33,995 nt of DNA. Origin: Methyloversatilis sp. XJ19-49. Its GTDB lineage: Bacteria > Pseudomonadota > Gammaproteobacteria > Burkholderiales > Rhodocyclaceae. Below, in pieces: positions 7,114-33,158 of the stretch. Made by a program: the position numbers and the translations under genes. The number at the start of each line of letters is the position of its first letter. The stretch's first letter is position 1. The notes below the pieces were generated by a model. That model saw only the letters and a program-made list of their open reading frames with translations, was not told where the DNA came from and made no database searches. The stretch lies in the NCBI RefSeq assembly GCF_024580145.1, contig NZ_JANINI010000021.1, forward strand, positions 1 through 33,995. The letters run 5' to 3'.

Positions 7114-7361
7114 CAACTTGGGTTCCGGCGACGTTTATGGACGGGTGATTTGCCCCGAACGATACAAGGTTTGCCGGTGAGACGCATGTTGCAGCGCGCC
7201 GGACAAGTGCTTCGCAAACGGCGTCGGACCTCCTGATACATGCGGATACCGACCGCTGCGCGCCCCGGATGAACCTCGGTGCCCGCGGTGGGTCGATCCA
7301 TTGTCAGGCAGTTGCCCGATGCCCGAATTGCCATCCGGCGCACGCTCTGGAGGATCCGACG

Positions 7362-16706: not shown

Positions 16707-17141
16707 TCAGGCGCGTCGCTCGCCGAGACTGCGGTCCAGCTTGTCTTCGACCTCACCGATGGCCGCCGCGAGCGAATTCACCGATTCGGCCGTCGTCTGC
16801 TGCATGGCCGCGCGCAACTCGGCGAATTCTTTCTGCATCGCAGCGTTCAGTTCGGTGAAGCGCGATGCTTCGGCCTGATCAGCCAGCAAGCGCTGCTCGC
16901 GCAGTTCCTTGGCATGACGGCGCGCTTCGAGCAGGGTGGAGGTGTGCAGCGTGAGTGTGTAGGCGCCGAGCAGCACCAGCAGCAAGGTCGTGGCACCGAG
17001 CAGGATGATGCCGGCCGGTGCGTTGATCGTCGCCACCAGCAGCGACACCTCGACCGGCATGACCAGCACGCTCCAGTTGGCGATCACGAAGGCGGCGAGC
17101 AGGCCCATCACCAGTATTCCAAGTGCGCCGAGCAGTTTCAT
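16707..17141 (-). CDS. LapA-domain membrane protein
   Basis: Small protein of 144 aa with two membrane helices (about 4-22 and 38-62) joined by a short loop containing NW, the layout of the LapA/DUF1049 family. A charged coiled-coil tail (about 70-144) rich in Glu, Ala and Leu follows and should be cytoplasmic. In E. coli, LapA is linked to lipopolysaccharide assembly control with LapB; no lapB is seen here, so the role is open. The ATG at 17141 has an AGGAGA ribosome-binding site; a longer in-frame start at 17192 lacks one and would precede the first helix with polar residues. It lies 69 bp downstream of the MFS gene on the same strand and may share its transcript. Confidence 0.8.
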
Positions 17142-17210
17142 CAGTGTTCTCCTTTTATTGTCATCGCACCATTGTCGTGCATGACCAGCCATACCGCCAT
17201 CGGCATCCGC

Positions 17211-18410
17211 CTACGCCGGCGCTGCAGCCGGCTGCATGCGCGCCTCGCGGATCGGCAGATTGACCAGCGCCGCGATGGTCGCGAGCAGTGCATCGGCATA
17301 CCACATCCACAGGTAGTTGCCGGTGTGCTCGAGCGCCAGCCCGCCCAGCCAGGCGCCGAAGAAGCCGCCGATCTGGTGCGACAGCAGCGTGAGGCCGAAC
17401 AAGGTCGCAAGATAGCGCGTGCCGAACAGCTTGCCGACCACGCCGGCAGTCGGCGGCACCGTGGCCAGCCAGGTCACGCCGAGACCGATGGCAAACAGGT
17501 AGAAGGTCCATTCGGTCTGCGGCGACGCCAGGTAGATCAACACCAGCACAGCACGCGACGCGTACATCCAGAACAGGATCATCTTGCTGCGCCAGCGGCC
17601 GACCGCCCAGCCGGCCAGCAGGCTGCCGGCGATGTTGGCCAGCCCGATCAGCGCCAGCGCACTGCTCGCCACTTCGGCCGGCAGGCCGCACAGCCCCACC
17701 TCGCCCGGCAGATGGGTGATCAGGAATGCGATGTGAAAGCCGCAGGTGAAGAAGCCGGCATGCAGCAGCAGGTAGCTGCGGTCACGCAGCGCATCGCGCA
17801 CCGCGTGACGCAGGCCGCCGCTGCCATCCGGCGCGGCATGACTGACCACCGGTTCGCGTGCCCGCAGGGCGCGTGCCAGCGGCAGTGCGGCCAGCGCCGC
17901 GATGGCCAGCGCATACATCGCTCCCATCCAGCCCACGGTGGTGATGAGCTTCTGTGCCAGAGGCGCAAACACGAACTGGCCGAGCGAGCCACCGGCGTTG
18001 ATGATGCCGGCCGCCTGACCGCGTTTCGCCGAATCGAGCTTGCGCGAGGCGGCGCCGATCAGCACCGAAAAGCTGCCGGCGCCGGAGCCGGCCGCCGACA
18101 GCACGCCGAGCGCCATCATCATGCCGAAGCTGCTGTCCATGAAGGGCGTGAGCGCGCAACCCAGCGCCAGCACGATCAGCCCGGTGGCCAGTACGCGGCC
18201 CGGCCCGTAGCGATCGGCCACTGCGCCGGCCACCGGCTGTATCGCCCCCCAGACGAACTGGCCGATCGCCAGCGCCAGGCTCAGGCTGACGATGCCCAGA
18301 CCGGTGGAGGTATTGATCGGCGAAATGAACAGGCCGGACGACTGGCGCACGCCCATCGTGACCATCAGCAGCAGGGCGGCGTAAAGCACGGCAGACAGGG
18401 CGGAGGGCAT
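17211..18410 (-). CDS. Major facilitator superfamily transporter
   Basis: Integral membrane protein of 399 aa with about 12 hydrophobic segments. The loop motif [13 protein letters not shown] after the second helix is the MFS signature (motif A). It is most like the general anion/organic acid or CynX/oxalate-formate-like group, but the substrate cannot be read from sequence. I chose ATG at 18410. It lacks a clear ribosome-binding site, and the sequence just upstream is the repeat array at 18421-18451, which points its CTTG heptamers toward this gene. A TTG at 18440, itself inside the array, is an alternative start. It is divergent from the ynfA-like gene. Confidence 0.87.
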
Positions 18411-18420
18411 GGGAAGACAG

Positions 18421-18518
18421 GTGCAAGGTACAAGATGCAAGGTACAAGGAAATGCGTCGCCGCGCGCACCTTGAACCTTGTACCTTGCCCCTTGAATCTT
18501 GGAGCTTGTATCTTGAAT
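18421..18518. repeat. Head-to-head arrays of a 7-bp CTTGNAY repeat
   Basis: On the plus strand, 18470-18518 holds seven consecutive 7-mers: CTTGAAC, CTTGTAC, CTTGCCC, CTTGAAT, CTTGGAG, CTTGTAT, CTTGAAT. On the minus strand, 18448-18421 holds four in the opposite direction: CTTGTAC, CTTGCAT, CTTGTAC, CTTGCAC. A GC-rich spacer of about 21 bp (18449-18469) separates them. The two arms can pair into a long imperfect hairpin. Each arm points at the start of a divergent gene (MFS to the left, ynfA-like to the right). I do not recognise this as a named repeat family. Confidence 0.9.
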
Positions 18519-18842
18519 CTGCTTTCAACCACTGCGCTTTTCGTCGCCACCGCACTGGCGGAGATCGTCGGCTGCTATCTGCCCTGGCTGTGGCTGAAGG
18601 ACCGCGCGCCGGTATGGGTGCTGCTGCCGGCGGCGATGTCGCTGGCCGTCTTCGTCTGGCTGCTCACGCTGCATCCGACCGCCGCCGGGCGCGTCTATGC
18701 GGCGTATGGCGGCGTTTATGTGTGCGTTGCGGTGCTGTGGCTGTGGTTGGTTGACGGCGAACGCCCGCACCTTTGGGACATCACCGGCGTCTCGGTGGCG
18801 CTGGCCGGAATGGCCATCATCATGTTCGCGCCGCGCACCTGA
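18513..18842 (+). CDS. YnfA-family (UPF0060) small membrane protein
   Basis: Four-helix inner-membrane protein of 109 aa, matching the E. coli YnfA family in length and in blocks such as [33 protein letters not shown] and [10 protein letters not shown]. YnfA proteins resemble small multidrug resistance transporters; the physiological substrate is uncertain. The likely start is TTG at 18513, with GGAG (18501-18504) 8 nt upstream. Both the start codon and the GGAG fall inside the CTTG heptamer array. An in-frame ATG at 18435 would add 26 residues encoded by the repeats and matching nothing in the family. The gene is 26 bp upstream of the SDR gene. Confidence 0.87.
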
Positions 18843-19648: not shown

Positions 19649-19730
19649 ACTGCGTGACGGCACGTCTCGGATTGCAGGGGAAACACGTTCTTCAAGGCTG
19701 TCCGGAATGAGGCGTCCTTGGTAGTGTTCG

Positions 19731-19744
19731 GGTGCAGTGCTTGC
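19731..19744 (+). promoter_or_regulatory. Possible sigma-54 (-24/-12) promoter for the PEP-CTERM gene
   Basis: GGTGCAGTGCTTGC has GG and GC separated by exactly 10 nt and a perfect TTGC at the -12 element, about 64 bp before the ATG at 19808. The -24 element matches poorly outside the GG (TGCA instead of CACG). PEP-CTERM genes in exosortase-bearing bacteria are often preceded by sigma-54 promoters under the PrsK/PrsR system, which makes the site worth noting. A chance match is quite possible in this GC-rich DNA. Confidence 0.3.
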
Positions 19745-19807
19745 GCCGGCGCGGCCACAAGGGCACGACCCGGCAGATGGATGTCCTTCCTTATCCGGGA
19801 AAAACCG

Positions 19808-20503
19808 ATGAAACTCAGACTTGCCGCCTCGTGCATCACCGCTTCGATCATGTACTTCGCCGCGGCGCCGGCGCTGGCAGCCGACTACTACCTGGAAATA
19901 CCGCGCATCAATGGCGGTTCGGTCGCCGAAAACTACAAGGACCAGATAGAGGTCTTTTCTTTCAACTGGACGCTGTCCAACACGGCGTCCACCGGTCCGT
20001 CCGGCAGTACGGCATCGCGGCCGGTGTTCGGTGATCTGGAATGGATGCAGGCGGTGGATCAGAGCATCCCCAAACTGTTTGAAGGTGTGGCGAACGGCAA
20101 TGTAGTCGGCAAGGTGACGCTCAGCTTCGTCAAGTCGGGCGAGGAGCAAGCCCATCGCTACTTCACGATGACCTTCGAAGACGCCACGCTGACCTCGTTG
20201 AGCCTGGCCGGGGCCTCGGGCGGTGACCCGCTGGCATCCCTCAGTCTGAGTTACAAGGCAATCGAACTTGCCTACTATCCGAAGGACAAGGGCGGAAAGC
20301 TCGGTGACGCCATCAAGGCGAACTGGGATCTGGAAGGGGTGAAGGGCGACGCACGCGTACTGATGCAGCTTGCATCACCCGACACGCCCATCGTGCTCGA
20401 CGTGTCGCAACCCATACCCGAACCGGAGCAGGCGGCCCTGCTGCTCACCGGCCTCGGCCTGATCGGCTGGGTGGCGCGTCGCCAGCGCGCCCGCCTCTGC
20501 TGA
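19808..20503 (+). CDS. Secreted Hcp-fold protein with PEP-CTERM sorting signal
   Basis: Protein of 231 aa. Residues 1-25 are a Sec signal peptide (ALAA before DYYLEI). Residues about 26-160 match the Hcp1 (type VI secretion tube) family: DYYLEIPRINGGS, IEVFSFNW, a KLFEGVANG segment, the TMTFEDATLTSLSL strand pair and LSLSYKAIEL. The tail has PEP at 204-206, a hydrophobic helix (209-222) and RRQRAR, the PEP-CTERM signal recognised by exosortase in EPS-producing Gram-negatives. Classical Hcp has neither a signal peptide nor a sorting tail, so this one probably acts at the surface or in the matrix rather than in a type VI apparatus. No type VI genes are nearby. ATG at 19808 was chosen because it begins the signal peptide. 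Confidence 0.85.
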   Translation: MKLRLAASCITASIMYFAAAPALAADYYLEIPRINGGSVAENYKDQIEVFSFNWTLSNTASTGPSGSTASRPVFGDLEWMQAVDQSIPKLFEGVANGNVVGKVTLSFVKSGEEQAHRYFTMTFEDATLTSLSLAGASGGDPLASLSLSYKAIELAYYPKDKGGKLGDAIKANWDLEGVKGDARVLMQLASPDTPIVLDVSQPIPEPEQAALLLTGLGLIGWVARRQRARLC

Positions 20504-20823: not shown

Positions 20824-22107
20824 ATGACACACCCCGTCGATCGTCGCCAGGTCATCAAGGGCATGGGCGCGCTGGCCGCGTCGGCCGCGCTGCCGTTCTC
20901 GATGCCGGCGCAGGCGCAGAAGAAGCCGACCGGCAAGCCCATCGTGATCGGGCTGACGATTTCGCAGACGGCCGCCGCAGGGGTGGCCGATCACGGCGAT
21001 CACCTGAACGGTTCCATCCTCGCGATGGAAGAGATCAACGCCAATGGCGGCATCCTTGGCCGGCCGCTCGAACTCAAGCCGGTCGATGTGGATCTGCTGT
21101 CGCCGGAAAGCTGCCAGGCGGTGGTGCGCAAGCTGGTGGACATGAAGGTGCATGCCATTTCGTCGCCCTTCCTTTTCGTGCCGATTCCGGCCATGGATGC
21201 GTCGGTCGGCTACAAGTGCCCTTATCTGAACGGCAACACGCAGCGCGCGGCGACCGACCTCGTCGCCGCCAATCCGCAGAAGTACGGCCACATTTTCCAG
21301 ATGGACCCGTCGGAGGTGTATTACGGCTACACCTTCCCGAAATTCCTCGAGGACATGCAGGACAAGGGGGGCTGGAAGCCGATCAACAACAAGGTGCACA
21401 TCGTCCAGGAGCAGATCGCCTACAACCAGACGATTTCCCGCGCCTGTCAGGAAGCGCTGACGAAGAGCCGATTCGAACTGGCGAAGGTGACGGACATCCA
21501 GTATCCGGTGCAGGACTGGGGCGCGGTCGTCCGCGACATCAAGAAGACCGGCGCCGGCGCGGTCATGATCGACCACTGGGTGGCCGCCGAGTACGCCGCC
21601 TTCGTCAAGCAGTTCCGCGCCAATCCGCTCAAGGGCGCGCTGGTGTATCTGCAGTACGGGCCGTCGCAACCGGAATTCCTGCAGCTCGCCGGCAAGAACG
21701 CCGAAGGCTTCGTGTGGAGCACGGTGCTCGGCGTGTATGCCGACGAAAAGGGTCGCGCCTTCCGCGAAAAGTACAAGAAGCGCTTCCCGGCCAAGGTGAT
21801 GGGCCTGTGCTACACCGGCAGCGGCTACGACATCGTCAATTTCCTCGCCCAGGCGTGGACGGCGGTCGGCGACCCGGACAAGTTCGATGCGGTGAATGAC
21901 TACATCCGCAAGACGCCGTTCCGCGGCGTGTGCGGCTGGTCCTACCTGAACAATGCGCGGCAGGAAGGCGTGCATTACCCGGTCGGCACCGACGATCTGG
22001 AAAAGGGCATGGCCCAGCTCTACTTCCAGGTGCAGAACGGCGAACACAAGATCATCTATCCGAACAAGCTGATCGAAACGCCGTTCAAGCCCGCGTCCTG
22101 GATGTAA
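20824..22107 (+). CDS. ABC transporter substrate-binding protein, amide/branched-chain amino acid type, Tat signal
   Basis: Periplasmic binding protein of 427 aa (LivK/AmiC-like type I fold) that opens a five-component importer operon. Residues 6-12 read DRRQVIK, a twin-arginine motif, followed by a hydrophobic stretch and AQA at about 30-32, so export is probably by Tat. The mature part has IVIGLTISQTAAAG, the INANGGILGRPLEL block and a late GSGYDIVNFLAQAW segment, all typical of this class. Its relatives include binding proteins for short-chain amides and urea. With dimethylformamidase genes downstream, DMF or a related amide is the likely ligand (inference). AAGGAG precedes the ATG at good spacing. 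Confidence 0.9.
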   Translation: MTHPVDRRQVIKGMGALAASAALPFSMPAQAQKKPTGKPIVIGLTISQTAAAGVADHGDHLNGSILAMEEINANGGILGRPLELKPVDVDLLSPESCQAVVRKLVDMKVHAISSPFLFVPIPAMDASVGYKCPYLNGNTQRAATDLVAANPQKYGHIFQMDPSEVYYGYTFPKFLEDMQDKGGWKPINNKVHIVQEQIAYNQTISRACQEALTKSRFELAKVTDIQYPVQDWGAVVRDIKKTGAGAVMIDHWVAAEYAAFVKQFRANPLKGALVYLQYGPSQPEFLQLAGKNAEGFVWSTVLGVYADEKGRAFREKYKKRFPAKVMGLCYTGSGYDIVNFLAQAWTAVGDPDKFDAVNDYIRKTPFRGVCGWSYLNNARQEGVHYPVGTDDLEKGMAQLYFQVQNGEHKIIYPNKLIETPFKPASWM

Positions 22108-22118
22108 TCGACGTGACC

Positions 22119-22859
22119 ATGGCTCAGGCAGGGGACCCGCTGTTCGCCTGCGACGACATCCGCCTCGATCTGGGCGGGCGCGAAATCCTGCGCGGCGTGT
22201 CGCTGTCGATCCGGCGCGGCGAGGTGCTCGGCATGATCGGGCCCAACGGCGCCGGCAAGACCAGCCTGCTCGAAGTGCTGTCCGGGCGCATCCGGCCGAA
22301 GTCGGGCACGGTGACCTTCAAGGGTCGGGACGTGACCGCGCTGCGGCTGCACGAGCGCGCCCGGCTCGGTCTGGGTCGCACCTACCAGACGCCGGTTGTG
22401 CCGGAGGAACTGACCGTGGCCGAAGTGCTGAAATCGGCGCGCCAGGCCTACCCGCCCTATCTGACGCGCCACCACGCGGAGTGGGCGTGCGAGCTGCTCG
22501 GTCTGACGGTCGATGAAGACCTGATTGCCGGCCGGCTCGAAACCCTGAACCGGCGCAAGCTGCTGCTGGCCTGTCTGCTGATGCGCCGCCCGCCGCTGCT
22601 GCTGATGGACGAGCCGGCCGCCGGGCTGATCAATTCCGAAGTCGACGAAATCGACCATCTGGTGCGCCTGCTGGCCAAGGAGCTGAACCTGGCCATCCTG
22701 ATCGTCGAACACCGCATCGAACTGCTCGACGCGATCGCCGACCGCGTCATGGTGATGGACGTCGGCGAGGTGATCGCCGAAGGCAGTCTGCAGCACATCC
22801 TCGGCGACGCCCGGGTGCGCGCCGCCTATTTCGACAGCATCGGCGAGGTGCACGCATGA
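22119..22859 (+). CDS. ABC transporter ATP-binding protein, LivG-like, with degenerate signature motif
   Basis: Nucleotide-binding subunit of 246 aa. The Walker A is GPNGAGKT (41-48), the Q-loop residue lies in RTYQ (87-90), Walker B is LLLMDEP (160-166) and the H-loop histidine is H198. The ABC signature, normally LSGGQ or LSYGQ in LivG, reads ETLNRRK at 141-147, so the glycines that contact ATP across the dimer are lost. The partner LivF-like subunit keeps a good signature, so the dimer should have one normal and one degenerate ATP site. ATG at 22119 is preferred; a GTG at 22113 is an alternative. It overlaps livF by 4 nt. Confidence 0.9.
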   Translation: MAQAGDPLFACDDIRLDLGGREILRGVSLSIRRGEVLGMIGPNGAGKTSLLEVLSGRIRPKSGTVTFKGRDVTALRLHERARLGLGRTYQTPVVPEELTVAEVLKSARQAYPPYLTRHHAEWACELLGLTVDEDLIAGRLETLNRRKLLLACLLMRRPPLLLMDEPAAGLINSEVDEIDHLVRLLAKELNLAILIVEHRIELLDAIADRVMVMDVGEVIAEGSLQHILGDARVRAAYFDSIGEVHA

Positions 22860-23599
22860 GCGCCACCGCCACGCCACCGGCCGACGCCGGTCGAGAAATC
22901 CTGAAGGTGGAAGGCCTGTCCGCCGGCTACGGGCCGCTGCGCGTGCTGCACGACCTCGACCTGTCGGTGCATGCCGGCGAGCGGGTCGGCATCGTCGGCC
23001 TGAACGGTCACGGCAAGTCCACATTGTTCCTCGCCATCGCCGGCCTGACCGGCTGGCAGCGCGGTTCGATCAAGCTCAATGGCGTCGAGGTTGGCGGCAC
23101 GCGCAGCCAGGGACCGGGTCGCTACACACATCGCGTGGTCAAGCTCGGTCTGGCGCTGATGCCGCAGGGCGATGAGATTTTTCAGGGACTGACGGTGGAA
23201 GAACATCTCGACAGCGGGGCCTTCACGCCGCGCGCCTGGCGCGAGCGCGCCGCGCGCAAGCGGCGCGTGCTCGAGATCTTTCCACCACTCGAAAAGCTGA
23301 TGAAGACGCCGGTCGGCCGGCTGTCCGGCGGCGAGCGGCGCATGGTGTCGCTCGGTCGCGGGCTGATGGCCGAAGCATCGCTGTTCCTGGTCGACGAGCC
23401 GTCGCTGGGCCTCGCGCCGAAGATCAGCAAGAGCGTCATCAACGCCTTGATGAGCGTCGAACTGAATGACGCGGCGATGGTGATTGCAGAACAGAACGTG
23501 TCGCTGCTGGAAGGGCGCGTGTCGCGCCTGATCGGCATGCATGTCGGAAAACTCAAGGGCGAAGCATCCGCAGCGTCCCGATCCCGTCCGGAGGTCTGA
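22856..23599 (+). CDS. ABC transporter ATP-binding protein, LivF-like
   Basis: Second nucleotide-binding subunit of the importer, 247 aa. It has Walker A GLNGHGKST at 48-56, a canonical signature LSGGE at 156-160, Walker B LVDEP at 178-182, and the EPSLGLAPKI segment typical of LivF. It powers uptake of the ligand bound by the upstream periplasmic protein. The ATG overlaps the livG stop (ATGA). The H-loop position reads AEQN, the usual form in LivF rather than histidine. A GGAGG at its end serves the next gene. Confidence 0.92.
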   Translation: MSATATPPADAGREILKVEGLSAGYGPLRVLHDLDLSVHAGERVGIVGLNGHGKSTLFLAIAGLTGWQRGSIKLNGVEVGGTRSQGPGRYTHRVVKLGLALMPQGDEIFQGLTVEEHLDSGAFTPRAWRERAARKRRVLEIFPPLEKLMKTPVGRLSGGERRMVSLGRGLMAEASLFLVDEPSLGLAPKISKSVINALMSVELNDAAMVIAEQNVSLLEGRVSRLIGMHVGKLKGEASAASRSRPEV

Positions 23600-23602
23600 T
23601 TC

Positions 23603-24487
23603 GTGGAGTGGCCGTCCATCCTGTTGTCGGGCATCACGCTGGCGGCCATCTACGGCCTGCTTGCGATCGGCATTTCCATCACCTGGTCCAGCCTGGGCAT
23701 GGTGAACATGGCTTACGGCCTGACCTTCGCCGCCTCCGGCTACGGCGGCTGGCTGATGGCCGAGCACTTCAGCGAAGCCGGTGTGCTGGTCATCCTGGCC
23801 GGCATCGTCACCGGCGCGCTGATCGGCGTCATCGTGTGCCTGATCGCCTTCATCCCCATCCACGACAAGCCCAACTTCAATGTGCGCGGCCTGATCGCCA
23901 CGCTGGCGCTGAGCCTGATCGGTACCCAGCTGCTGCTGATGACCTTCGGCCCGCAGGCCAAGACGCTGCCGCCGCTGTTTGGCGAGTGGCAGTGGGAGAT
24001 GACCGAAGAACTGATCCTGACCGCCGACCAGGTGGGCACCTTGCTGTCGTCATTGCTGCTGCTCGGACTGACGCTGGCGTGGATGAAGGGCAGCCGGCGC
24101 GGGCTGGAGATCCGCGCCATGATGATGAATCCGTATGGCGCGGCGATCTGCGGCATCGGCGTGCGCAGCACCGGCATCTACGTGATGGCGATCACTGGCG
24201 CGCTGGCCGGCCTCGGCGCGGTGCTGCTGTGCCAGACCTACTTCGTCAGCCCGTTCTCCGGCCTGACGCCGATGATCAAGGGTGTCAGCGTGGCGCTGTG
24301 CGGCGGGCTCGGCAGCGTGTCCGGCGCGCTCATCGCTGCCTGCATCCTGGGTCTGGTCGAGGCGCTAACCACTGCGTATCTGGGCGGGCAGTACGTGCTG
24401 ATCACCCAGTTCATCGTCATCATCGTCATTCTGCTGATCCGCCCGCGCGGCATCGCCGGCATGCTGGACAAGGCGCGGGAGGCATGA
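23603..24487 (+). CDS. ABC transporter permease, LivH-like
   Basis: Inner-membrane permease of 294 aa with about eight hydrophobic segments. Family features include the N-terminal SGITLAAIYGLLAIG, the NMAYGLTFA loop, the conserved RAMMMNPYGAAICGI cytoplasmic loop and GGLGSVSGALIAA. It forms the pore with the LivM-like partner. The start is GTG at 23603, placed 8 nt after GGAGG, which itself lies at the end of livF. The stop overlaps the next permease gene as ATGATG. Confidence 0.92.
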   Translation: MEWPSILLSGITLAAIYGLLAIGISITWSSLGMVNMAYGLTFAASGYGGWLMAEHFSEAGVLVILAGIVTGALIGVIVCLIAFIPIHDKPNFNVRGLIATLALSLIGTQLLLMTFGPQAKTLPPLFGEWQWEMTEELILTADQVGTLLSSLLLLGLTLAWMKGSRRGLEIRAMMMNPYGAAICGIGVRSTGIYVMAITGALAGLGAVLLCQTYFVSPFSGLTPMIKGVSVALCGGLGSVSGALIAACILGLVEALTTAYLGGQYVLITQFIVIIVILLIRPRGIAGMLDKAREA

Positions 24488-26067
24488 TGTTCAAGGTCAC
24501 GAAATCGCTCGGCTGGAAGAACCCGCAGGACAGCTGGGCGCCCGATGCGCCGCGCTGGAAGCCGCGCATGCTGCCGGTCGGCCGGCTGCGCTGGTACTGG
24601 AAGGGACCGGCGCAGGGCAGCGCGCTGTGGCGTCTGCGCTACCCCTTCACGCGGCGCACCGTGCTGCGCACGCGCGGTGTCTACAACCCGAAGACGCTGC
24701 GTGCCGAGCGCACCATCGTCGATCGCCGGCCGATCTACTGGGCGCTCGGCCTCGCCCTGCTCGCGCTGCTGCCGCCCTTTGTCGATTCCGGCGCATTGCT
24801 GGCGGCGGGCGCCGTGTTCTGCATCTATGCCGCGATCAATCTGTGCTGGATGCTCACCATCGGCACCGCCGGCATCTTTTCGCTGGCCAGCCCGGCGGTG
24901 GTCGGCGCCGCGGCCTACGGCTCCTCATGGCTGGCCATTGAATACGGCCTGCCGTGGTGGACCCTGCCCTTCATCGGCAGCGGCATCGGCCTCGTCTTCG
25001 GCGCCATCATCGCGATACCGGCGACCCGCCTCGACGGCTTCTACTACGCGCTGCTGACGCTGGGCATCAACGAACTGTGCCGCGTCTATGTCGTGCAGTC
25101 GCGCGTGTTCGGCTCGGCAACAGGCGGCCTGTACGGCGCGCCCTCCTACATGCCGGAGGGTTGGGACGAAACCAGCCAGCTCAGGCTGGGCGTCTATGCC
25201 TGCCTGGCGCTGATGATCGCCGCGCTGTTCCTTTACCGCTTCGTCAATGGCACGCGTCTGGGCCGCATCCTGCGCGCCGCACCCGAGAAGAAGGAGGCGT
25301 TCGCCGAAGCGACCGGCATCGACTTCCGCTCGGCGCGGGTGCGCGTGTTCCTGATTTCGTCGATCGCGCTCGGTGTCATCGGCGGCTTCTACGCCACCCA
25401 CTTCCGCGGCGCCTCGCCGACGCTGTTCTCGTTCGATCTGGTGCTGATGATGCTGGCGATGATCGTCATCGGCGGGCTGGGTCGCGCCGAAGGGGCCGTG
25501 GTCGGCACGCTCATCGTCATCTTCATCGAAAAGTACCTGATCGACTGGGGGCCGGCCCGGCTCATCCTGATCGGTCTGATCATGCTCGGCGTCGTGCTGT
25601 TCCTACGCGGCGGCCTGTTCGGCATGAAGCAGCAGTTCCGCGCCTGGCGGAACAAGAAGAAAAGCGAACGCCGTTCAACCCGCGCCGAAAAAGGAGGCGA
25701 AATGCTGCCCGAAGAAGCCACCGAAACCCGCGACAAGGACCAGATCTTCGCCCGCCGCTTCGACAAGCAGCAGCGCGATTTCCTGAAGACGCTGGTGACC
25801 GACGACGTGATCGAGGAACACCGAGCGAAGCCGCTCGGCCAGCACAGCGAACAGCTGGAGCGCCTGCTGGTGTATTTCCGCCGCGGCGTGCAGAACGACA
25901 AGTACGCCATCGTCGCCACCGTTCCTTTCAAGGAGTACCGCGTGATCGCGCTGTCCGGCTTCCGCGGCGTGGCGCCGCGCGTGGTCGACGACAAGGTGTA
26001 TGCGACCGAGGACGAGGCCTATCACGGCGTGTTCCTGCGTCGCGTGCAGGACCTGCTCGAGTCGTAA
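24484..26067 (+). CDS. LivM-like ABC permease fused in frame to the N,N-dimethylformamidase small subunit
   Basis: The frame is open for 527 codons. Residues about 84-376 are a LivM-like permease (GTAGIFSLASPAVVGAAAYGS, the FYYALLTLGINELCR helix and GGLGRAEGAVVGT). Residues 381-406 are a highly charged linker. From M407 the sequence is the small subunit of N,N-dimethylformamidase. There is no stop between them: the codons around 25660-25704 read straight through. The permease also has an unusual soluble N-terminal extension of about 80 residues. Since the LivM C-terminus faces the cytoplasm, a fusion would hold the enzyme subunit at the inner mouth of the importer. A loss-of-stop mutation or sequencing error is the main alternative. 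The start at 24484 overlaps livH by 4 nt; 24487 is also possible. Confidence 0.8.
   Translation: MMFKVTKSLGWKNPQDSWAPDAPRWKPRMLPVGRLRWYWKGPAQGSALWRLRYPFTRRTVLRTRGVYNPKTLRAERTIVDRRPIYWALGLALLALLPPFVDSGALLAAGAVFCIYAAINLCWMLTIGTAGIFSLASPAVVGAAAYGSSWLAIEYGLPWWTLPFIGSGIGLVFGAIIAIPATRLDGFYYALLTLGINELCRVYVVQSRVFGSATGGLYGAPSYMPEGWDETSQLRLGVYACLALMIAALFLYRFVNGTRLGRILRAAPEKKEAFAEATGIDFRSARVRVFLISSIALGVIGGFYATHFRGASPTLFSFDLVLMMLAMIVIGGLGRAEGAVVGTLIVIFIEKYLIDWGPARLILIGLIMLGVVLFLRGGLFGMKQQFRAWRNKKKSERRSTRAEKGGEMLPEEATETRDKDQIFARRFDKQQRDFLKTLVTDDVIEEHRAKPLGQHSEQLERLLVYFRRGVQNDKYAIVATVPFKEYRVIALSGFRGVAPRVVDDKVYATEDEAYHGVFLRRVQDLLES
25691..25697 (+). promoter_or_regulatory. Internal ribosome-binding site for the DMFase small subunit
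   Basis: AAGGAGG, a near-perfect Shine-Dalgarno sequence, lies 4 nt before the in-frame ATG at 25702 inside the permease reading frame. It suggests that the small subunit was, and probably still is, translated independently. The spacing is slightly short but workable. Confidence 0.7.
25702..26067 (+). CDS. dmfA1: N,N-dimethylformamidase small (alpha) subunit, internal start
   Basis: A polypeptide of 121 aa, charged and soluble, close to the 132 aa of the Paracoccus/Alcaligenes DMFase small subunit (size from memory). Recognisable blocks are FARRFDKQQRDFLKTLV near the start, the central LVYFRRG segment and TEDEAYHGVFLRRVQDLL at the end. DMFase is an iron enzyme of small and large subunits that hydrolyses DMF to dimethylamine and formate. 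The gene stops 25 nt before the large-subunit ATG. It has its own ATG and ribosome-binding site but lies within the permease frame, so it may be produced free, fused, or both. Confidence 0.85.
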   Translation: MLPEEATETRDKDQIFARRFDKQQRDFLKTLVTDDVIEEHRAKPLGQHSEQLERLLVYFRRGVQNDKYAIVATVPFKEYRVIALSGFRGVAPRVVDDKVYATEDEAYHGVFLRRVQDLLES

Positions 26068-26092: not shown

Positions 26093-28411
26093 ATGGCACA
26101 GATCAAGGTTTTCGGTTATTGCGACCAGCTCACGGTCAAGGCGGGCGACACGCTCAGCGTGAAGGCCAGCGTCGATGGCGCCGACAGCGTCACCGCCCAG
26201 CTGGTGCGGCTCATCCATGGCGACGCGCACCCGGATGGCCCGGGCTTTGTCGAGGAGGCGATCGATAGCCCGATCAACCGCGACTGGCCGGCGAAGAAGC
26301 AATACACCCAGGTCGGCTCGTTCCTGCGCGTGCACGACCCGGACCATCGGCTCGCCGTGACCGGCAGCTTCACGCTGCATGCCTTCATCACGTCGACGCT
26401 GCCGGACATCGGCGTTCGCCAGGCGCTTCTCGGCCGCTGGTCGATCGATCGCAACGAAGGCTATTGCCTGGGCATCAATCAGAAAGGCTATCTGGAGTTC
26501 TGGGTCGGCGACGGTCAGGCGGTCGATTACGTCGCGGCCGAAGTGCCGCTGGTGGCGCGCGTGTGGTGCTTCATCGCGGTCAGCTACGACGCCTCGACCG
26601 GCCGCGCGACGATCCACCAGCAGTCGGTGCTCAACCGCTACAACAGTCTGCTGTCGCCGGTCGCGCCGATGGATTACGGTTCGCACGTGCATGAAACGCT
26701 GCGCGTGAAGCCGGTCAGCGCCGATGCCCCCTTTCTGGTGGCCGGCGCGCAGGACTGGCACGAACTGCGCGGGCATTTCGTCGCGCAGTGCTTCTGCGGC
26801 AAGATCGACCGCCACGGCATGTACGACCGCGCACTGACGCGCGACGAACTCGAGGCGCTGGCGGCCGGCGGAGCACCGCACGCCAACGGTCTGCTCGCAT
26901 ACTGGGATACCACGCACGGCTATACCGACCGGGGCATCGGCGACACCGTGTTCGACACCGGCCCGTATCGCCTGCACGCCGAGGGCTACAACCGCCCGAT
27001 CCGTGCCCAGACCGGCTGGAACTGGAACGGCCGCGACGACTGTTTCCGGCTCGCGCCGCAACAGTACGGCGGCATCGAGTTCCACGTCGATGCGATGATC
27101 GATTCGAACTGGGACGAAACGCTGTCGTTCACGATTCCGGCCTCGCTGCGCAGCGGTGTGTATGCGGTGCGCCTGCGCGTGGGCGACGGTGCCGGTCTGG
27201 CCGAGGATCATGTGGTGTTCTTCCTGCGTGCCGCCGTGCCGAAAGCGCCGGTGGCGCTGCTGATGCCTACCGCCAGCTATCTCGCATACGCCAACGAAAA
27301 GCTCAGTTTCGATGCACAGATCATCCAGCCGATGGCCGGCCAGCCGCCCATCGTCAGCGAAGTCGACATCGAAATGTACAAGAACCACGAGTTCGGCCTG
27401 TCCACCTACGACCACTTCCTCGACGGGCTGGGTGTGTCCTACAGCTCCTACCGCCGGCCGGTGGTTAACATGCGACCGAAGTACCGCATGTCGAGCATGG
27501 GGCTGACCTGGCAGTTTCCGGCCGACCTGTCCATCGTCGCCTGGCTGGAGAAGCTGGGCTACGACTACGAAATCCTGACCGACGAAGACCTGCACCGCGA
27601 CGGCCTGGCCGCGCTCCATCCCTACAAGGTGGTGCTGAGCGGCTCGCATCCGGAGTACTACTCGGAACGCATGCTGGATGCGACCGAAGACTACGTCAGT
27701 GGCGGCGGTCGCCTGCTGTACATGGGCGGCAATGGCTACTACTGGTGCGTCGGCTTCCGCGACGACGAACCGTGGATCATGGAAGTGCGCAAGCTCGACT
27801 CCGGCTCGCGCGCCTGGGAAGCGAGACCCGGCGAGCACTATCTGTGCACCACCGGCGAGAAGAGCGGTCTGTGGAAGAACCGCGGTCGTCCGCCGCAGAA
27901 ACTCACCGGGGTGGGCTTCACTGCGGAAGGCTTCGAAGAGTCGAAGTCCTACCGCCGCATGCCGGACAGCTACCACCGCACGGTGTCGTGGATCATGGAG
28001 GGCGTCGAGGGCGACATCATCGGCGACTTCGGTCTGGCACGCGGTGGTGCCGCCGGCGTCGAGCTCGACCGCTACGACCTCGCGCTGGGCACGCCGCCGC
28101 ACACGCGCATCCTCGCGTCGTCAGGCGGTCACAGCGACAACTACATGCTGGTCGTGGAAGAGATCGTCTACATGCACCCGGGCTTCGGCGGCACACAGGA
28201 ACCCAAGGTGCGCGCCGACATGACCTGGTTCATGGCGCCCAATCACGGCGCGGTGTTCTGCACCGGCTCGATCGCGTGGAGCAGCGCGCTGCCCAGCAAC
28301 GACTTCGACAACAATGTTTCGCGCATCACGAAGAACGTGGTCGACGCCTGCCTGAAGGACGGCCCGCTGCCGGGCTGGGCATGGATCGCCGACGAGAAAC
28401 AATGGCGCTGA
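26093..28411 (+). CDS. dmfA2: N,N-dimethylformamidase large (beta) subunit
   Basis: Catalytic subunit of 772 aa, close to the 762 aa reported for DMFase. The N-terminal half is beta-rich and lectin-like (TGSFTLHAFI, GKIDRHGMYDRALTRDEL). The C-terminal half is a glutamine-amidotransferase/ThuA-like fold. Y399 (YLAY), Y439 (STYD), H519 and E521 (SGSHPEYYS) fall at or within one residue of the iron ligands and active-site residues I recall for the Paracoccus enzyme (Y399, Y440, H519, E521). The reaction releases dimethylamine and formate in the cytoplasm. ATG at 26093 was chosen because it begins the family N-terminus MAQIKVFGYC; the longer frame start at 26000 lies over dmfA1. Confidence 0.95.
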   Translation: MAQIKVFGYCDQLTVKAGDTLSVKASVDGADSVTAQLVRLIHGDAHPDGPGFVEEAIDSPINRDWPAKKQYTQVGSFLRVHDPDHRLAVTGSFTLHAFITSTLPDIGVRQALLGRWSIDRNEGYCLGINQKGYLEFWVGDGQAVDYVAAEVPLVARVWCFIAVSYDASTGRATIHQQSVLNRYNSLLSPVAPMDYGSHVHETLRVKPVSADAPFLVAGAQDWHELRGHFVAQCFCGKIDRHGMYDRALTRDELEALAAGGAPHANGLLAYWDTTHGYTDRGIGDTVFDTGPYRLHAEGYNRPIRAQTGWNWNGRDDCFRLAPQQYGGIEFHVDAMIDSNWDETLSFTIPASLRSGVYAVRLRVGDGAGLAEDHVVFFLRAAVPKAPVALLMPTASYLAYANEKLSFDAQIIQPMAGQPPIVSEVDIEMYKNHEFGLSTYDHFLDGLGVSYSSYRRPVVNMRPKYRMSSMGLTWQFPADLSIVAWLEKLGYDYEILTDEDLHRDGLAALHPYKVVLSGSHPEYYSERMLDATEDYVSGGGRLLYMGGNGYYWCVGFRDDEPWIMEVRKLDSGSRAWEARPGEHYLCTTGEKSGLWKNRGRPPQKLTGVGFTAEGFEESKSYRRMPDSYHRTVSWIMEGVEGDIIGDFGLARGGAAGVELDRYDLALGTPPHTRILASSGGHSDNYMLVVEEIVYMHPGFGGTQEPKVRADMTWFMAPNHGAVFCTGSIAWSSALPSNDFDNNVSRITKNVVDACLKDGPLPGWAWIADEKQWR

Positions 28412-28469: not shown

Positions 28470-29498
28470 TCAGATGAAACGCGCCTGATGCAGCTGGCGG
28501 TAGCGCACCGCCAGCGTGGCGCCGTCGATGTGCAGTTCTTCCTGGCGCAGCAGCGACGCTAGTTCGCCCTTGTCGCTGACCCCCAGTTTTTCGTAGATGG
28601 CACGCAGGTAGAAGCGGATCGTGGCCGGTGACAGGTCGAGCTGGCGCGCGATTTCCTTGTAGCTGCTGCCGCGCCCGAAGGCTTCGGCCACCGCGGTTTC
28701 GCGCGGCGTCAGCACGTCGAGACGCGAGCGGCTGCGCACCACCAGCAAGGTGAAGTCGCCCAGCAGGTGACGCTGCAGTACGACGGTGCGCAGCTTGAGC
28801 CGGAAGTCGTCGGTCTTCAGCCACAGGCCTACCGTGTCCGGCAGGCAGCCGTCGCCGATGTCCGGCCACTCGCAGCGCAGCGCCTCGACGAACTGCGGTT
28901 CGGCGTTCAGCAACTGGCCCTGGCGGTCGAGAATCGCCATGGCGACCTGATCGTTCGCCATGCTGGCCTTCAGATATTCCATCTGGAAGATGCGGTTCGA
29001 CGTCCACGCCGAACACAGGTGCGGCATCAGATACTGCGCCATCTGCTGGTCGCCCCGGGTGAAGCGGGCGTCGCCGACCGTGCGGTACAGCGACAGGAAA
29101 ACGAAGGCGGTTTCGGAGGGCAGATAGACCGAGGTGCAGAACGCCTGGCCGACACCGTGCTCGCCCATCAGTGTCGCCAGCCCGGGCGCCTCGTTGAACC
29201 TTCGCTGATCGAAGTACACGGTTTCCCGCGGCTTGGCTTTCACCGCCTTGGCCAGCGCATCGTCGTACTTGGTTTCTTCCCACAGCGGCACGAAGCCGTC
29301 GTCGAGATTGAAGGGCTGCGAGCTGTGCAGCGCGAAGCTGCCTGCAGCCGGCGACATGATGCCCCACCACGCCTTGTCGAATCCGACCAGCGGCTGCACC
29401 CGTTCGAGCGCCGCCTGCTGGAAATCGTCTATCGCCTTCGCCTGCGCCAGCGACTGCAGATCGAGTACCGCGTCGCTGAATTCGCCCACACTGAACAT
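28470..29498 (-). CDS. LuxR-family transcriptional regulator, probable DMF-cluster regulator
   Basis: Regulator of 342 aa. Residues 263-318 are a LuxR/GerE helix-turn-helix (LTPRETAV, YKEIARQLDLS, TIRFYLRAIYEKLGV). The N-terminal 250 residues look like a GAF/autoinducer-type sensor but match no ligand class I can name. It is convergent with dmfA2. LuxR-type regulators accompany DMFase genes in other degraders (from memory), so control of the dmf operon is likely. Start choice: ATG at 29498 has AGGA 7 nt upstream. In-frame ATGs at 29534 and 29555 have weaker sites and would give 354 or 361 aa. Confidence 0.85.
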   Translation of the reverse strand: MFSVGEFSDAVLDLQSLAQAKAIDDFQQAALERVQPLVGFDKAWWGIMSPAAGSFALHSSQPFNLDDGFVPLWEETKYDDALAKAVKAKPRETVYFDQRRFNEAPGLATLMGEHGVGQAFCTSVYLPSETAFVFLSLYRTVGDARFTRGDQQMAQYLMPHLCSAWTSNRIFQMEYLKASMANDQVAMAILDRQGQLLNAEPQFVEALRCEWPDIGDGCLPDTVGLWLKTDDFRLKLRTVVLQRHLLGDFTLLVVRSRSRLDVLTPRETAVAEAFGRGSSYKEIARQLDLSPATIRFYLRAIYEKLGVSDKGELASLLRQEELHIDGATLAVRYRQLHQARFI

Positions 29499-29599
29499 GG
29501 CGCCATCCTGATGAAAGACCTCCACGCCGGCCATCCCGACCGGCGACCCTCTCATGCATCACTCGTGCCAGTGGCCGGAATCGTTGGTACGCCTCGCAA

Positions 29600-30605: not shown

Positions 30606-31532
30606 TCAGCGCGGGCCGCGGGCCTCCGGGCGGAAGCGCGCGATCAGGACGATCAGGGCGAGCGCCGCCGGCAGCCATGACAGGTCGGTCGGCACCGGAC
30701 GGGAGACCGCCGCGTCGGCATTCTTCATGGCACGGGTCAGGGAGTCGGCGTCAGTCAGCGTGGCGTAGTCGAAGCCGACCTGCTGCGCGATGGCGCGCAG
30801 GTGCGTCTCGCGCAGTGCCGACAGGTGCTCGGTGCCCGGTACGCGCTTGCCGTCGGCAGTGCGCAGCTCGCGCTGGATGACCTCGCCCGCCTTCCAGTAG
30901 CCGACCGGACGGCCGTCGTCGTCGCTCTTCGGAATCGGCCGCGCCGCCTCGCCGCCGGCGCCGATGATCCAGCCGCGGATGTCGCCCGGCTTGATGTCGT
31001 CGAAGCCCGGCTTGTCGCCGTCGCGCAGCGGCGGCGCTTCCTGCCCGTCACTGACGAACACGATGCTCGGCGTGTCGCCGATCTCCTTCGCCGCCCGCAC
31101 CGACCAGAACACGCCCTTCGCCACCTCGCTCGAATTGCCCCAGCGCATGCGGCCGTCGATCTGGTCGAGCGACGCAAGCAGGTCGCCGTAGTGCGCACAC
31201 ACTTCGATCGGCGCCAGCAGCAGCAGCGTGCGGTACTCGGCGAAGCCGGCCCAGCCGACGCGCGAGCCGCACGGCAGCTCGCGCAGTGCGCGCCTGGCCG
31301 ATTCGCGGGCGTAGGCGAGCCGGCTGACCGGCACGCCGTCCAGTTCGTAGTCCTCCACATTCATGCTCTGCGTCAGGTCGAACACGACGATGGTGTCCCA
31401 GCTGTCGCGCGGCAGATTCACCGGCGGCAGCACGGCGGCGAACACCAGCAGCGCCAGCGCGGCGATCAGCGAACGCGCGTCGCGCTCACGCAAGCTGGCC
31501 AGCAGATTGCGCAGGAAGGCGCGTGTTCTCAT
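30606..31532 (-). CDS. mxaL: MxaL-like von Willebrand factor A membrane protein, second copy
   Basis: Protein of 308 aa, the paralogue of the one at 1691-2674. It has a membrane anchor at about 21-40, a von Willebrand A domain with the same variant metal motif DLTQS (52-56), and shared blocks DYELDG, ELPCGSRVGW, a FVSDGQEAPPL strand, GRPVGYWKAGEV and GTEHLSALR. A C-terminal hydrophobic segment is followed by a short basic tail. Its presumed role in methanol dehydrogenase maturation is by homology. It starts 10 nt after the mxaK stop and is the last gene of the second set visible here. Confidence 0.84.
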   Translation of the reverse strand: MRTRAFLRNLLASLRERDARSLIAALALLVFAAVLPPVNLPRDSWDTIVVFDLTQSMNVEDYELDGVPVSRLAYARESARRALRELPCGSRVGWAGFAEYRTLLLLAPIEVCAHYGDLLASLDQIDGRMRWGNSSEVAKGVFWSVRAAKEIGDTPSIVFVSDGQEAPPLRDGDKPGFDDIKPGDIRGWIIGAGGEAARPIPKSDDDGRPVGYWKAGEVIQRELRTADGKRVPGTEHLSALRETHLRAIAQQVGFDYATLTDADSLTRAMKNADAAVSRPVPTDLSWLPAALALIVLIARFRPEARGPR

Positions 31533-31542
31533 GCGCGTGTCC

Positions 31543-32079
31543 TCACGGCAGGTCCAGCCGCACGCCCTGCAGCGTGGTGACGACGCGCTCCTTCGGCGGT
31601 GCCGGGCCGTCGTCGGCCGCGGCGGCGGCCTGCTCGATTTCGGGGGCGAGCCACAGCGCGCGTTCGAGGTTGTAGCGTGCGTCCCAGTCGTCCGGGCGTT
31701 CGCGCAGCGCGTCGCGGTAGCGCTGCTTGGCCAGTTCGACCAGCGGCAGTGCGTTGGCGACGTCGGCCTCGCCTCGCGCCAGCGCCTCGCGCAGATGCAG
31801 ATTGCCGAGGTTGTAGCGCGCGCCCTGGCGCAGGTCCGGACGTTCGCCGGCGATCAGCGCCTTCCAGGCGCGGGTCGCGGCTTCGCTGTCGGCGCCGCGG
31901 CTCAGCGCCAGCGCCTGCGCGAACTGCGCCTCCGGCAGATCGACTTCGATGTTGCCTGCGGCGGCGATGGCGGCATTCACGCGTTCGGCCTGCCACAGCT
32001 GCGTGGTCTGCCAGCCGGCAGCGACACCAGTCAGCAGGGCGGTGGTGCCGAAGATCAGATGGACGGTGCGTCGTTTCAC
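31543..32079 (-). CDS. mxaK: MxaK-like membrane-anchored protein, second copy
   Basis: Protein of 178 aa with an N-terminal anchor (about residues 7-24) and helical repeats bearing ARYNLGNLHLREAL and ARYNLERALWLAPE, as in the copy at 2671-3210 (179 aa). I chose GTG at 32079 because it overlaps the mxaC stop as GTGA, gives the same length as the paralogue and puts the anchor at the N-terminus. An upstream in-frame ATG at 32130 would add 17 residues lying within mxaC. Function is inferred from the operon. Confidence 0.82.
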   Translation of the reverse strand: MKRRTVHLIFGTTALLTGVAAGWQTTQLWQAERVNAAIAAAGNIEVDLPEAQFAQALALSRGADSEAATRAWKALIAGERPDLRQGARYNLGNLHLREALARGEADVANALPLVELAKQRYRDALRERPDDWDARYNLERALWLAPEIEQAAAAADDGPAPPKERVVTTLQGVRLDLP

Positions 32080-33158
32080 AGCCAGCTCCGCAGAAGTAGG
32101 GATCGATAGACCAGCAGCAGCGCACAGCACAGCGCCGCCAGCGAAAAGAGAAGACGGCTGTGGTCCTGCCGCGGCACGCGCTCGTCGAAGTCGAGCGGGA
32201 AGTTCTGCTGCCGACCGACCTCGGCCACCGCCTTCGCAAGATCTTCCGGGCTGTCGGCCTGATACAGCCGGTAGGTCACCGGCAGCGACTGGAAGAAGCG
32301 GTGCAGCGACACCTCGGCGATCGATTCCTGCGCGTAATAGGCATTGCGGATTTCGATCGCGGCCGGGTCATCGCCCTCGGCTTGCGGTGGCGGTGCGCTC
32401 GCTTCAGCGTCCAGTTCCGGCGCGTTGAGCGTGCGCAGGTACAGCCAGTGCAACGCGATGCGGTTGGCCTGCAGACCTTCACGGACGCGTTTGCGCGTCG
32501 GTTCGTCGAGGTGGGTGCCACCGTCGGTCACCAGCAGGATGATGCGGCTGCCGGTGTAGGCGCGCGTATCGAAGGTACCGATGGCGGCGGTCAGTGCGCG
32601 GCCGACATCCGTGTCGGACAGCCCGCGCCCCAGTCCGCCCGCCTTGATGCCGGCCTGCACCACGGCGTCGTGCTGGGTGAAGGGCACGACGTTCATCGGT
32701 CCGGCGCTGAAGAACATCAGCGCGAAGCGGTCGTCCGGTCGCTGCTCGACGAATTTCGACAGCAGGTCACGCGCCACCGCCGATTTCGGCTCACCCCGCG
32801 ATTCGACCTGGTACAGCATGGAATGCGGATCGATGGTGCGCCAGTCGGCGGGTTTCATCTTGGCGTCCATGCTGCGACTGCGGTCCATCAGGATCAGGAT
32901 TTCCGCGCCGCGCCCGGTGCGTGTCACCGTGGTTTCCGGCGTACCGGGACCGGCCAGTGCGAGCACGATGCCGACCAGCGCGAGCACCGCCAGCGCGCGC
33001 CAGGCGAATCCGGCGATACGACCGACGCGGTCGCGCGGCAGCCAGTCCAGCGTCGGAAACAGCAGCGTGTCGCGCCGCCGGCGCAGCAGCGGCAGCGCCG
33101 CCAGCGGCAACAGCAGCAGCGCCCAGGGCTGGGCGAAGTCGATGGCGCCGAATGTCAT
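32076..33158 (-). CDS. mxaC: MxaC-like von Willebrand factor A membrane protein, second copy
   Basis: Protein of 360 aa with two N-terminal membrane segments (about 10-25 and 50-70), an intact metal motif DRSRS at 92-96, and a C-terminal membrane helix. It shares FAQPWALLLLPLA-like packing, DWLPRD, TGRGAEI, GLGRGLSDTD and the RQQNFPLDFDERVPR block with the copy at 3207-4256. An inserted acidic loop (about 250-275, rich in Ala, Pro and Glu) distinguishes it. The ATG overlaps the mxaA stop as ATGA. Confidence 0.87.
   Translation of the reverse strand: MTFGAIDFAQPWALLLLPLAALPLLRRRRDTLLFPTLDWLPRDRVGRIAGFAWRALAVLALVGIVLALAGPGTPETTVTRTGRGAEILILMDRSRSMDAKMKPADWRTIDPHSMLYQVESRGEPKSAVARDLLSKFVEQRPDDRFALMFFSAGPMNVVPFTQHDAVVQAGIKAGGLGRGLSDTDVGRALTAAIGTFDTRAYTGSRIILLVTDGGTHLDEPTRKRVREGLQANRIALHWLYLRTLNAPELDAEASAPPPQAEGDDPAAIEIRNAYYAQESIAEVSLHRFFQSLPVTYRLYQADSPEDLAKAVAEVGRQQNFPLDFDERVPRQDHSRLLFSLAALCCALLLVYRSLLLRSWL

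Follow-up and report, generated by a model that had tools for sequence, protein, structure and literature searches.

The locus described here raises the question of whether one gene can supply both a transporter-bound and a free form of an enzyme subunit. In the window (the whole stretch of DNA analyzed, 33,995 nucleotides of contig NZ_JANINI010000021.1 of Methyloversatilis sp. XJ19-49), a LivM-type permease of an ATP-binding cassette (ABC) importer and the small subunit of an N,N-dimethylformamidase (DMFase)-type iron amidase share one open frame, and a Shine-Dalgarno (SD) motif followed by an ATG lies at their junction. Based on the comparisons reported below, it is quite probable that this single gene yields a permease-tethered and a free small subunit, with the amidase docked at the importer exit. 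The gene and its parts are as follows.

24484..26067, + strand: fusion gene of a LivM-type permease and a DMFase small subunit, 527 aa (open frame, PF02653, 6lvb_B by sequence and fold)
24484..24726, + strand: basic N-terminal extension of 81 residues, predicted cytoplasmic, 19 K+R and 4 D+E (AlphaFold2 model, hydropathy)
24727..25605, + strand: permease core with ten predicted membrane helices (AlphaFold2 model, hydropathy, Foldseek to BtuC)
25606..25725, + strand: linker, a charged helix (380-402) and then a low-confidence stretch ahead of the small-subunit fold (model, pN/pS)
25691..25697, + strand: internal Shine-Dalgarno AAGGAGG (sequence, codon choice, SD comparison)
25702..26067, + strand: internal start ATG and putative free small-subunit reading, 121 aa, 14.2 kDa (6lvb_B match, SD comparison)

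Translation of the 24484-26067 frame gave 527 residues, with the terminal codon (26065-26067) as its sole stop. Residues 111-370 matched PF02653 (BPD_transp_2, E = 4.5e-26), and the last 121 residues, from ATG 25702, matched the DMFase small subunit 6lvb_B (phmmer, E = 1.9e-10; query 9-118 against chain 15-127 of 132, one distinct solved sequence being matched), bearing out the proposal of a first-pass annotation, made from the letters of the DNA, that the permease frame stays open into a complete DMFase small subunit. The AAGGAGG (25691-25697) and ATG 25702 that it had placed at the junction were both read there, with four bases between the end of the motif and the ATG (25702-25704). The computed masses were 59.0 kDa for the full fusion and 14.2 kDa for a product starting at the internal ATG. 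The small-subunit domain belongs to the DmfA1 family by sequence (phmmer) and fold (Foldseek); it does not form a separate gene here, the frame being continuous, which is a trait of organization and casts no doubt on the homology.

The comparison covered 61 fused loci (47 from Proteobacteria and 14 from Actinobacteria), a locus being counted as fused when both domains shared one frame, following a prior long-frame match in the searches. The operon order was substrate-binding protein (SBP)-LivG-LivF-LivH-LivM::A1-A2, as far as the contigs reach. Two further congeneric genomes, at 98 and 92% identity, had stop-free fusions, as did one genome of another family (66% identity over residues 8-527). 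In the phylogenetic analysis of the permeases, 27 fused rows formed one clade (support 100/99) against nine non-fused livM rows, a long-branched outgroup, so that both domains lie in one conserved frame across lineages, as in a transporter-enzyme fusion. A split version, with the small subunit separated by a stop and no other copy present, was not met beside this importer in the examined loci, a negative that rests on the search tables. Loci L077, L081 and L085 (same places as L101, L103 and L106) and L082 and L025/L086 (cut by contig ends) were dropped, and near-identical rows were also removed before counts and trees; L174 and L175 probably represent opposite ends of a single operon, and L174 was excluded from the two-group statistics.

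Since the same uninterrupted frame was found in other genomes and in the 61 compared loci, the fusion is not a sequencing error, and the inspection of homologous clusters for a stop in the linker, suggested with the first-pass annotation, found it uninterrupted. Independent fused assemblies in two phyla, complete plasmids included, rule out a chance open frame as well as a sequencing or assembly error; for an error that removed a stop nothing was found in favor, and its probability is negligible.

The linker behaved as a protein segment under constraint. Pooled over 10 non-independent pairs, the ratio of non-synonymous to synonymous differences per site (pN/pS) was approximately 0.10 in the linker (36 codons), compared with 0.145 for the membrane core and 0.127 for the small-subunit domain; one linker pair (L018/L019) had four non-synonymous and one synonymous differences. 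Among 13 non-redundant proteobacterial sequences the linker (25624-25731) was gap-free, with a mean pairwise identity of 0.72 (0.63 in the core). The low pN/pS, the high identity and the lack of gaps argue that the long product is kept as a protein. Judged from sequence comparison, then, the fusion is genuine and old and has been retained at the protein level, and the conservation of both fusion and linker supports the earlier proposal of a transporter-enzyme fusion.

The codons of the internal SD were analyzed in the same 13 genes. The first glycine of the K-G-G-E motif (position -3) was encoded by GGA in 9 of 13, the highest value among 38 glycine columns (GGA averaged 7.7% over the remaining ones), and the lysine at -4 by AAA in 10 of 11, the highest among 17 lysine columns. 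Synonymous shuffling, gene by gene, gave P < 0.05 in 7 of 13, with L021, L026, L027, L028, L098 and L108 falling short individually; the Fisher combination of these tests (6e-11) takes no account of relatedness and is given no weight here. In 12 of the 13 genes the junction start had the strongest anti-SD pairing among all in-frame ATG/GTG codons. Across the 38 proteobacterial operons with no separate small-subunit gene, an ATG or GTG was found at position 0 or +1 of the junction in every case, and its SD ranked first in 36 and second in two, with about 32 candidate codons each. A conserved internal start codon with an SD, as expected of a gene with two in-frame starts, is therefore a feature of the proteobacterial loci (0/14 in Actinobacteria).

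Eight operons (L028, L166, L168, L170, L171, L173, L175 and L176) carried a separate small-subunit gene, either 5' or 3' of the large-subunit gene, and all eight retained the fused copy open. The glycine at -3 was GGC in 8/8 of them vs. 2/38 of the others; an ATG/GTG was missing from the junction in five of the eight (one with TTG), and where ATG persisted, in the other three, the pairing was weak (about -7 kcal/mol; best SD energy -7.0). For the free-copy label, the starred branches of the tree force two changes, and the separate gene most simply arose by two gains, on a tree that kept five of the eight free-copy operons. In Proteobacteria the internal start is, by these codon and pairing comparisons, conserved beyond codon usage and decays beside a separate small-subunit gene, and both results support the claim that the internal start serves a free subunit.

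In L028 (Ensifer adhaerens plasmid pB), the fused gene has lost its own internal start and has immediately 3' of it, after locus position 7360, a second small-subunit gene that is diverged. The free copy, on a very long branch, grouped with the small-subunit domain of its own fused gene (95/88), as if one two-product gene had turned into two genes.

The AlphaFold2 model of the fusion (predicted local distance difference test, pLDDT, 71.6) showed ten hydrophobic helices, and the tail after helix 10 is strongly basic, with 11 K+R in 32 residues. This tail and the basic N-terminal 81 residues are what cytoplasmic ends would be expected to look like; on the model, the most likely place of the enzyme subunit is the cytoplasmic side, at the importer exit. 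In Foldseek searches the small-subunit part resembled 6lvv_B and 6lvb_B (TM-score 0.79-0.80 on the chain), and the core resembled BtuC (2qi9_A, probability 1.00 but E = 0.024). In the N-terminal extension, R50, R52, T56, R58 and D80 were invariant in 15 fused sequences. The fused permeases share this conserved extension of some 80 residues. Matches to the nine non-fused livM in the comparison begin no earlier than residue 63, though a few weak rows of the fusion-protein search start before it. It might contact the enzyme.

The gene immediately downstream encodes the DMFase-like large subunit. In Paracoccus DMFase, according to the portions of the structural report used here (PMC7686228), the iron ligands are Y399, Y440 and E521, with H519 and N547 also named; the enzyme is α2β2 or a dimer of α2β2, the large subunit alone is inactive, and the active-site entrance is built by both subunits. 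All five residues are present in the large subunit of the window (Y399, Y439, equivalent to Paracoccus Y440, H519, E521 and N547), as read by alignment, regular expressions having missed real sites. Among 59 large-subunit frames, Y399 was kept in 56, Y440 in 57, H519 in 56, E521 in 58 and N547 in 59; 61 frames had been examined, two being cut before the site, and this set differs from the 61 fused loci in that it includes five unfused frames and omits some fused loci. Losses were confined to operons with two large-subunit genes. There are six of these (L027, L166, L168, L170, L175 and L176), and in each exactly one copy had lost an iron-site residue, by E521A, Y440C, or Y399L/F with H519R. Their sequences suggest mixed enzymes with one inactive large subunit.

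Taken together, these data lead to the following proposal. Translation from 24484 would give a 59 kDa LivM-type permease bearing the DMFase-type small subunit at its cytoplasmic C-terminus, and initiation at ATG 25702, driven by AAGGAGG, would give a 14 kDa small subunit in free form. Both forms would assemble with the large subunit (26093-28411), so that part of the amidase would sit on the importer; the binding protein and LivFGHM would import an amide, which the docked enzyme would hydrolyze at the exit. Both proteins would thus be made, the tethered subunit would bind the large one and substrate would be handed over, coupling uptake to hydrolysis, with N,N-dimethylformamide (DMF) as a candidate substrate. 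With a single tethered small subunit per tetramer, the other being free, an enzyme could dock on an importer and not join two of them. It is a more tentative idea, held with some doubt, that each tetramer combines one permease-borne and one internal-start subunit and that the ratio of the two starts sets the docked fraction of the enzyme; Actinobacteria would then be fully tethered, and two proteobacterial lineages would have split the products into separate genes.

Several observations weigh against the proposal of two products and docking. Every comparative count includes related sequences. Six of the 38 operons with no free copy had a weak SD (-7.1 to -7.7 kcal/mol), barely exceeding the three free-copy operons that keep a start, so that SD strength separates the groups incompletely, and in one of the latter (L176) the SD is still first in its gene. 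The confidence of the model is modest (the above pLDDT, with 10 sequences), and it leaves the linker and the N-terminus unplaced. In the sections of PMC7686228 considered, the N-terminal helix of the Paracoccus small subunit wedges between two large subunits, and by analogy a membrane tether could be sterically awkward. Finally, none of the 14 actinobacterial fused loci had an ATG/GTG from -5 to +6 codons around the junction (two had TTG), and a few had an ATG or GTG 11-14 codons beyond it, with no strong SD.

The free form is therefore not needed everywhere. In the permease tree the actinobacterial members were nested among proteobacterial fused permeases, with a sister group at 99/99, and for this reason they most simply lost the internal start. 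Of the 15 matching actinobacterial genomes, G832 and G877 each had a further short-frame match and G906 had two fused copies, and drafts may miss others. In the seven actinobacterial loci where the large-subunit site was read (L024, L099-L102, L104 and L106) its residues were intact, and since the Paracoccus large subunit alone is inactive, the tethered subunit probably serves the enzyme there. These loci would be the clearest indication that function continues despite the tether.

Three other explanations of the gene were weighed against the two-product reading. An incidental fusion by loss of a stop, with all working subunit coming from the internal start and the long protein being just a permease that carries a harmless tail, would fit an internal SD that is strong and conserved in most Proteobacteria, like that of an ordinary gene. 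It is nonetheless considered improbable: the linker is gap-free and under purifying selection, no split version accompanies this importer among the examined loci (fused being defined by the shared frame), 14/14 actinobacterial loci keep the fusion with no internal start, and the eight free-copy operons hold the fused copy open. Non-functional read-through is likewise disfavored by the linker selection and the fused-locus comparison. The converse, that the fusion is the sole product and the SD-like motif reflects chance codons or a translation pause for membrane insertion, draws on the actinobacterial relatives that manage with no junction start, on the conservation of K-G-G-E as protein and on the 6 of 13 sequences that individually miss P 0.05 in the shuffle. 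GGA and AAA are, however, rare in these genes yet preferred exactly at the motif, which also disfavors an accident of codon usage; a start codon occurs at position 0 or +1 in 38/38; and the motif, often with the start, is lost beside a separate small-subunit gene, a loss that a pausing or folding role does not predict. This explanation is very unlikely.

The small-subunit domain could instead be mainly a regulator, the docking of the large subunit or the loaded enzyme gating the importer, with catalysis at the exit secondary. Some ABC importers bear C-terminal cytoplasmic regulatory domains, and the basic N-terminal extension could also contact the enzyme. Against this, the conserved residues of the domain are shared with the lone free small subunit in the alignment (L007), and single-copy large subunits retain the iron site; a mainly regulatory role is thus unlikely, but worth bearing in mind.

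That an importer passes its substrate straight to the first enzyme has often been proposed, and such a link is seldom hard-wired in genes. In the present case the importer-enzyme link would be built into a single polypeptide that two phyla have kept, a free version apparently comes from the same gene, and because natural lineages have lost or split one of the products, importer-enzyme coupling would be directly testable with few constructs. Transporter-enzyme fusions and small subunits from internal starts are already known, and the present fusion is a variant of both. Compared with Paracoccus DMFase (DmfA1/DmfA2; PDB 6lvb), whose iron-site residues as given in the available text of PMC7686228 are the same here, the C-terminus of the fusion has the same family and predicted fold as the small subunit, at about 26-32% identity between Paracoccus and fused small subunits; in Paracoccus aminophilus, however, the small subunit is annotated as its own gene, dmfA1. 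LivFGHM and UrtABCDE importers (BPD_transp_2) comprise the same families of binding protein, two ATPases and two permeases, and lack the basic N-terminal extension and the C-terminal enzyme subunit found here. LplT-Aas likewise couples a transporter to an enzyme using its substrate, as one open reading frame in some bacteria, but its proteins are unrelated to these, the enzyme itself is fused, and the parts of that report consulted mention no internal start (PMC11416262). Cas11b, from an internal in-frame start of cas8b, is similarly a short product that serves as the small protein of the same complex, in an archaeal CRISPR complex rather than a transporter, according to an excerpt of the source (PMC11899642). 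No description of the present fusion was found in the open-licence PubMed Central (PMC) literature, and a report elsewhere is possible; there, dimethylformamidase together with ABC transporter gave none, DMFase small subunit gave only PMC7686228, and livM, fused, amidase, permease and hydrolase together gave none.

The distribution of the fusion was further evaluated by searches over partly overlapping samples of genomes. Some match to the fusion protein was found in 56 of 61 genomes, mostly to ordinary livM. With the small-subunit alignment, 12 of 13 genomes of the genus matched, three of them full length and fused (that of the window included) and the others with a shorter paralogue only. 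At the order level 9/399 genomes matched, all nine having one or more full-length copies in long open frames; at the phylum level 6/398, three full length and all three in long frames; in family f88 28/341, of which 14 had a long frame with a full-length copy; for the family of an Acetobacteraceae genome 19/249, six long; and in an actinobacterial order 15/166, 14 with the permease in frame, whole or, at contig ends, partial. Among plasmids, 38 of 72,556 records matched, and of the best 25 matches 24 were annotated as branched-chain amino acid ABC transporter permease and one was unannotated; the fusion corrects entries that name the protein merely as such a permease.

Trees of the small subunit were less uniform than that of the permease. 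In the first (47 rows), fused rows did not form one group: there were two changes, the Ensifer free copy fell among fused rows, and the free L030 and L090 stood unresolved beside them. A smaller tree (36 rows), which omitted ten more loci and the Ensifer free copy, separated the fused rows from the rest with support 88/87, on a branch that was not starred (69/86 with the Ensifer copy counted in the group).

Unfused relatives were also found. On plasmids of Rhodococcus, Caballeronia, Halalkalicoccus, Mycobacterium, Paracoccus (pAMI5) and Methylobacterium, stand-alone small subunits lie just 5' of the large-subunit gene, and this importer is not beside them; in Agrobacterium vitis an unfused pair lies 3' of sugar-type ABC importer genes. 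On plasmid p1 of Aminobacter niigataensis DMFA1, a DMFase-like pair adjoins a complete Liv-type importer, as here, but unfused, with the separate small-subunit gene followed by the large subunit and then the importer genes; neighborhood by itself is therefore no sign of fusion. A flotillin-domain gene precedes this pair (L035/L110), possibly another route to membrane placement of the enzyme. A stand-alone archaeal homologue of the small subunit (L031, 6800-7342, Halalkalicoccus jeotgali plasmid 2) is annotated as an inner-membrane translocator, perhaps a label taken over from fused proteins. Genes for handling formaldehyde adjoin one fused operon (L039), and two unfused pairs have primary-amine oxidase genes nearby, a weak pointer to N-alkyl amide substrates.

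The remaining genes of the operon and its neighbor are:

20824..22107, + strand: periplasmic substrate-binding protein of the importer, Peripla_BP_6 (PF13458, E = 8.9e-29; position kept in related operons)
22095..22859, + strand: LivG-type ATPase, start approximate (homologue at the equivalent place in related operons)
22856..23599, + strand: LivF-type ATPase (homologue at the equivalent place in related operons)
23603..24487, + strand: LivH-type permease (PF02653, E = 1.2e-26)
26093..28411, + strand: DMFase-like large subunit (6lvb_A, E = 2.1e-194, nearly whole length; iron-site residues conserved)
28470..29555, - strand: LuxR-type (GerE) regulator (PF00196, E = 1.4e-13)

The operon holds BPD_transp_2 permeases, a binding protein and two ATPases, as in Liv/Urt-type importers, and both permeases fall far below the cut-offs of the curated NCBIfam families LivM, LivH, UrtB and UrtC. 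The stop of LivH overlaps the start of the fusion gene (ATGATG), the binding protein has a twin-arginine signal match below the cut-off, and regulation of the operon by the LuxR-type gene is possible.

The genome of the window has a second, shorter small-subunit-like gene (L187, G000:C3:114412-114642), near a large-subunit homologue of 36% identity; similar short genes occur in nine other genomes of the genus, which lack the fusion, and in G012, and in L186 and L188 a short small-subunit/large-subunit pair lies close to Liv-type ATPases. Elsewhere in the window, an apparent second fusion, the 642-residue frame at 16914-18842 with a UPF0060 domain at its end, was rejected: its first 530 residues matched no Pfam family up to E = 10 and were present in 3 of 4 genomes searched, with stops in two of those three, and it seems to be an unused upstream frame. 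The gene at 19718-20503 pairs, unusually, an Hcp-like domain (PF05638) with a C-terminal PEP-CTERM match just over the cut-off. Two VWA-type proteins are encoded on the minus strand (30606-33158), perhaps in a Bat-type cluster; that at 30606-31532 is below the Pfam cut-off, and that at 32076-33158 is above it, with a sub-threshold BatA match.

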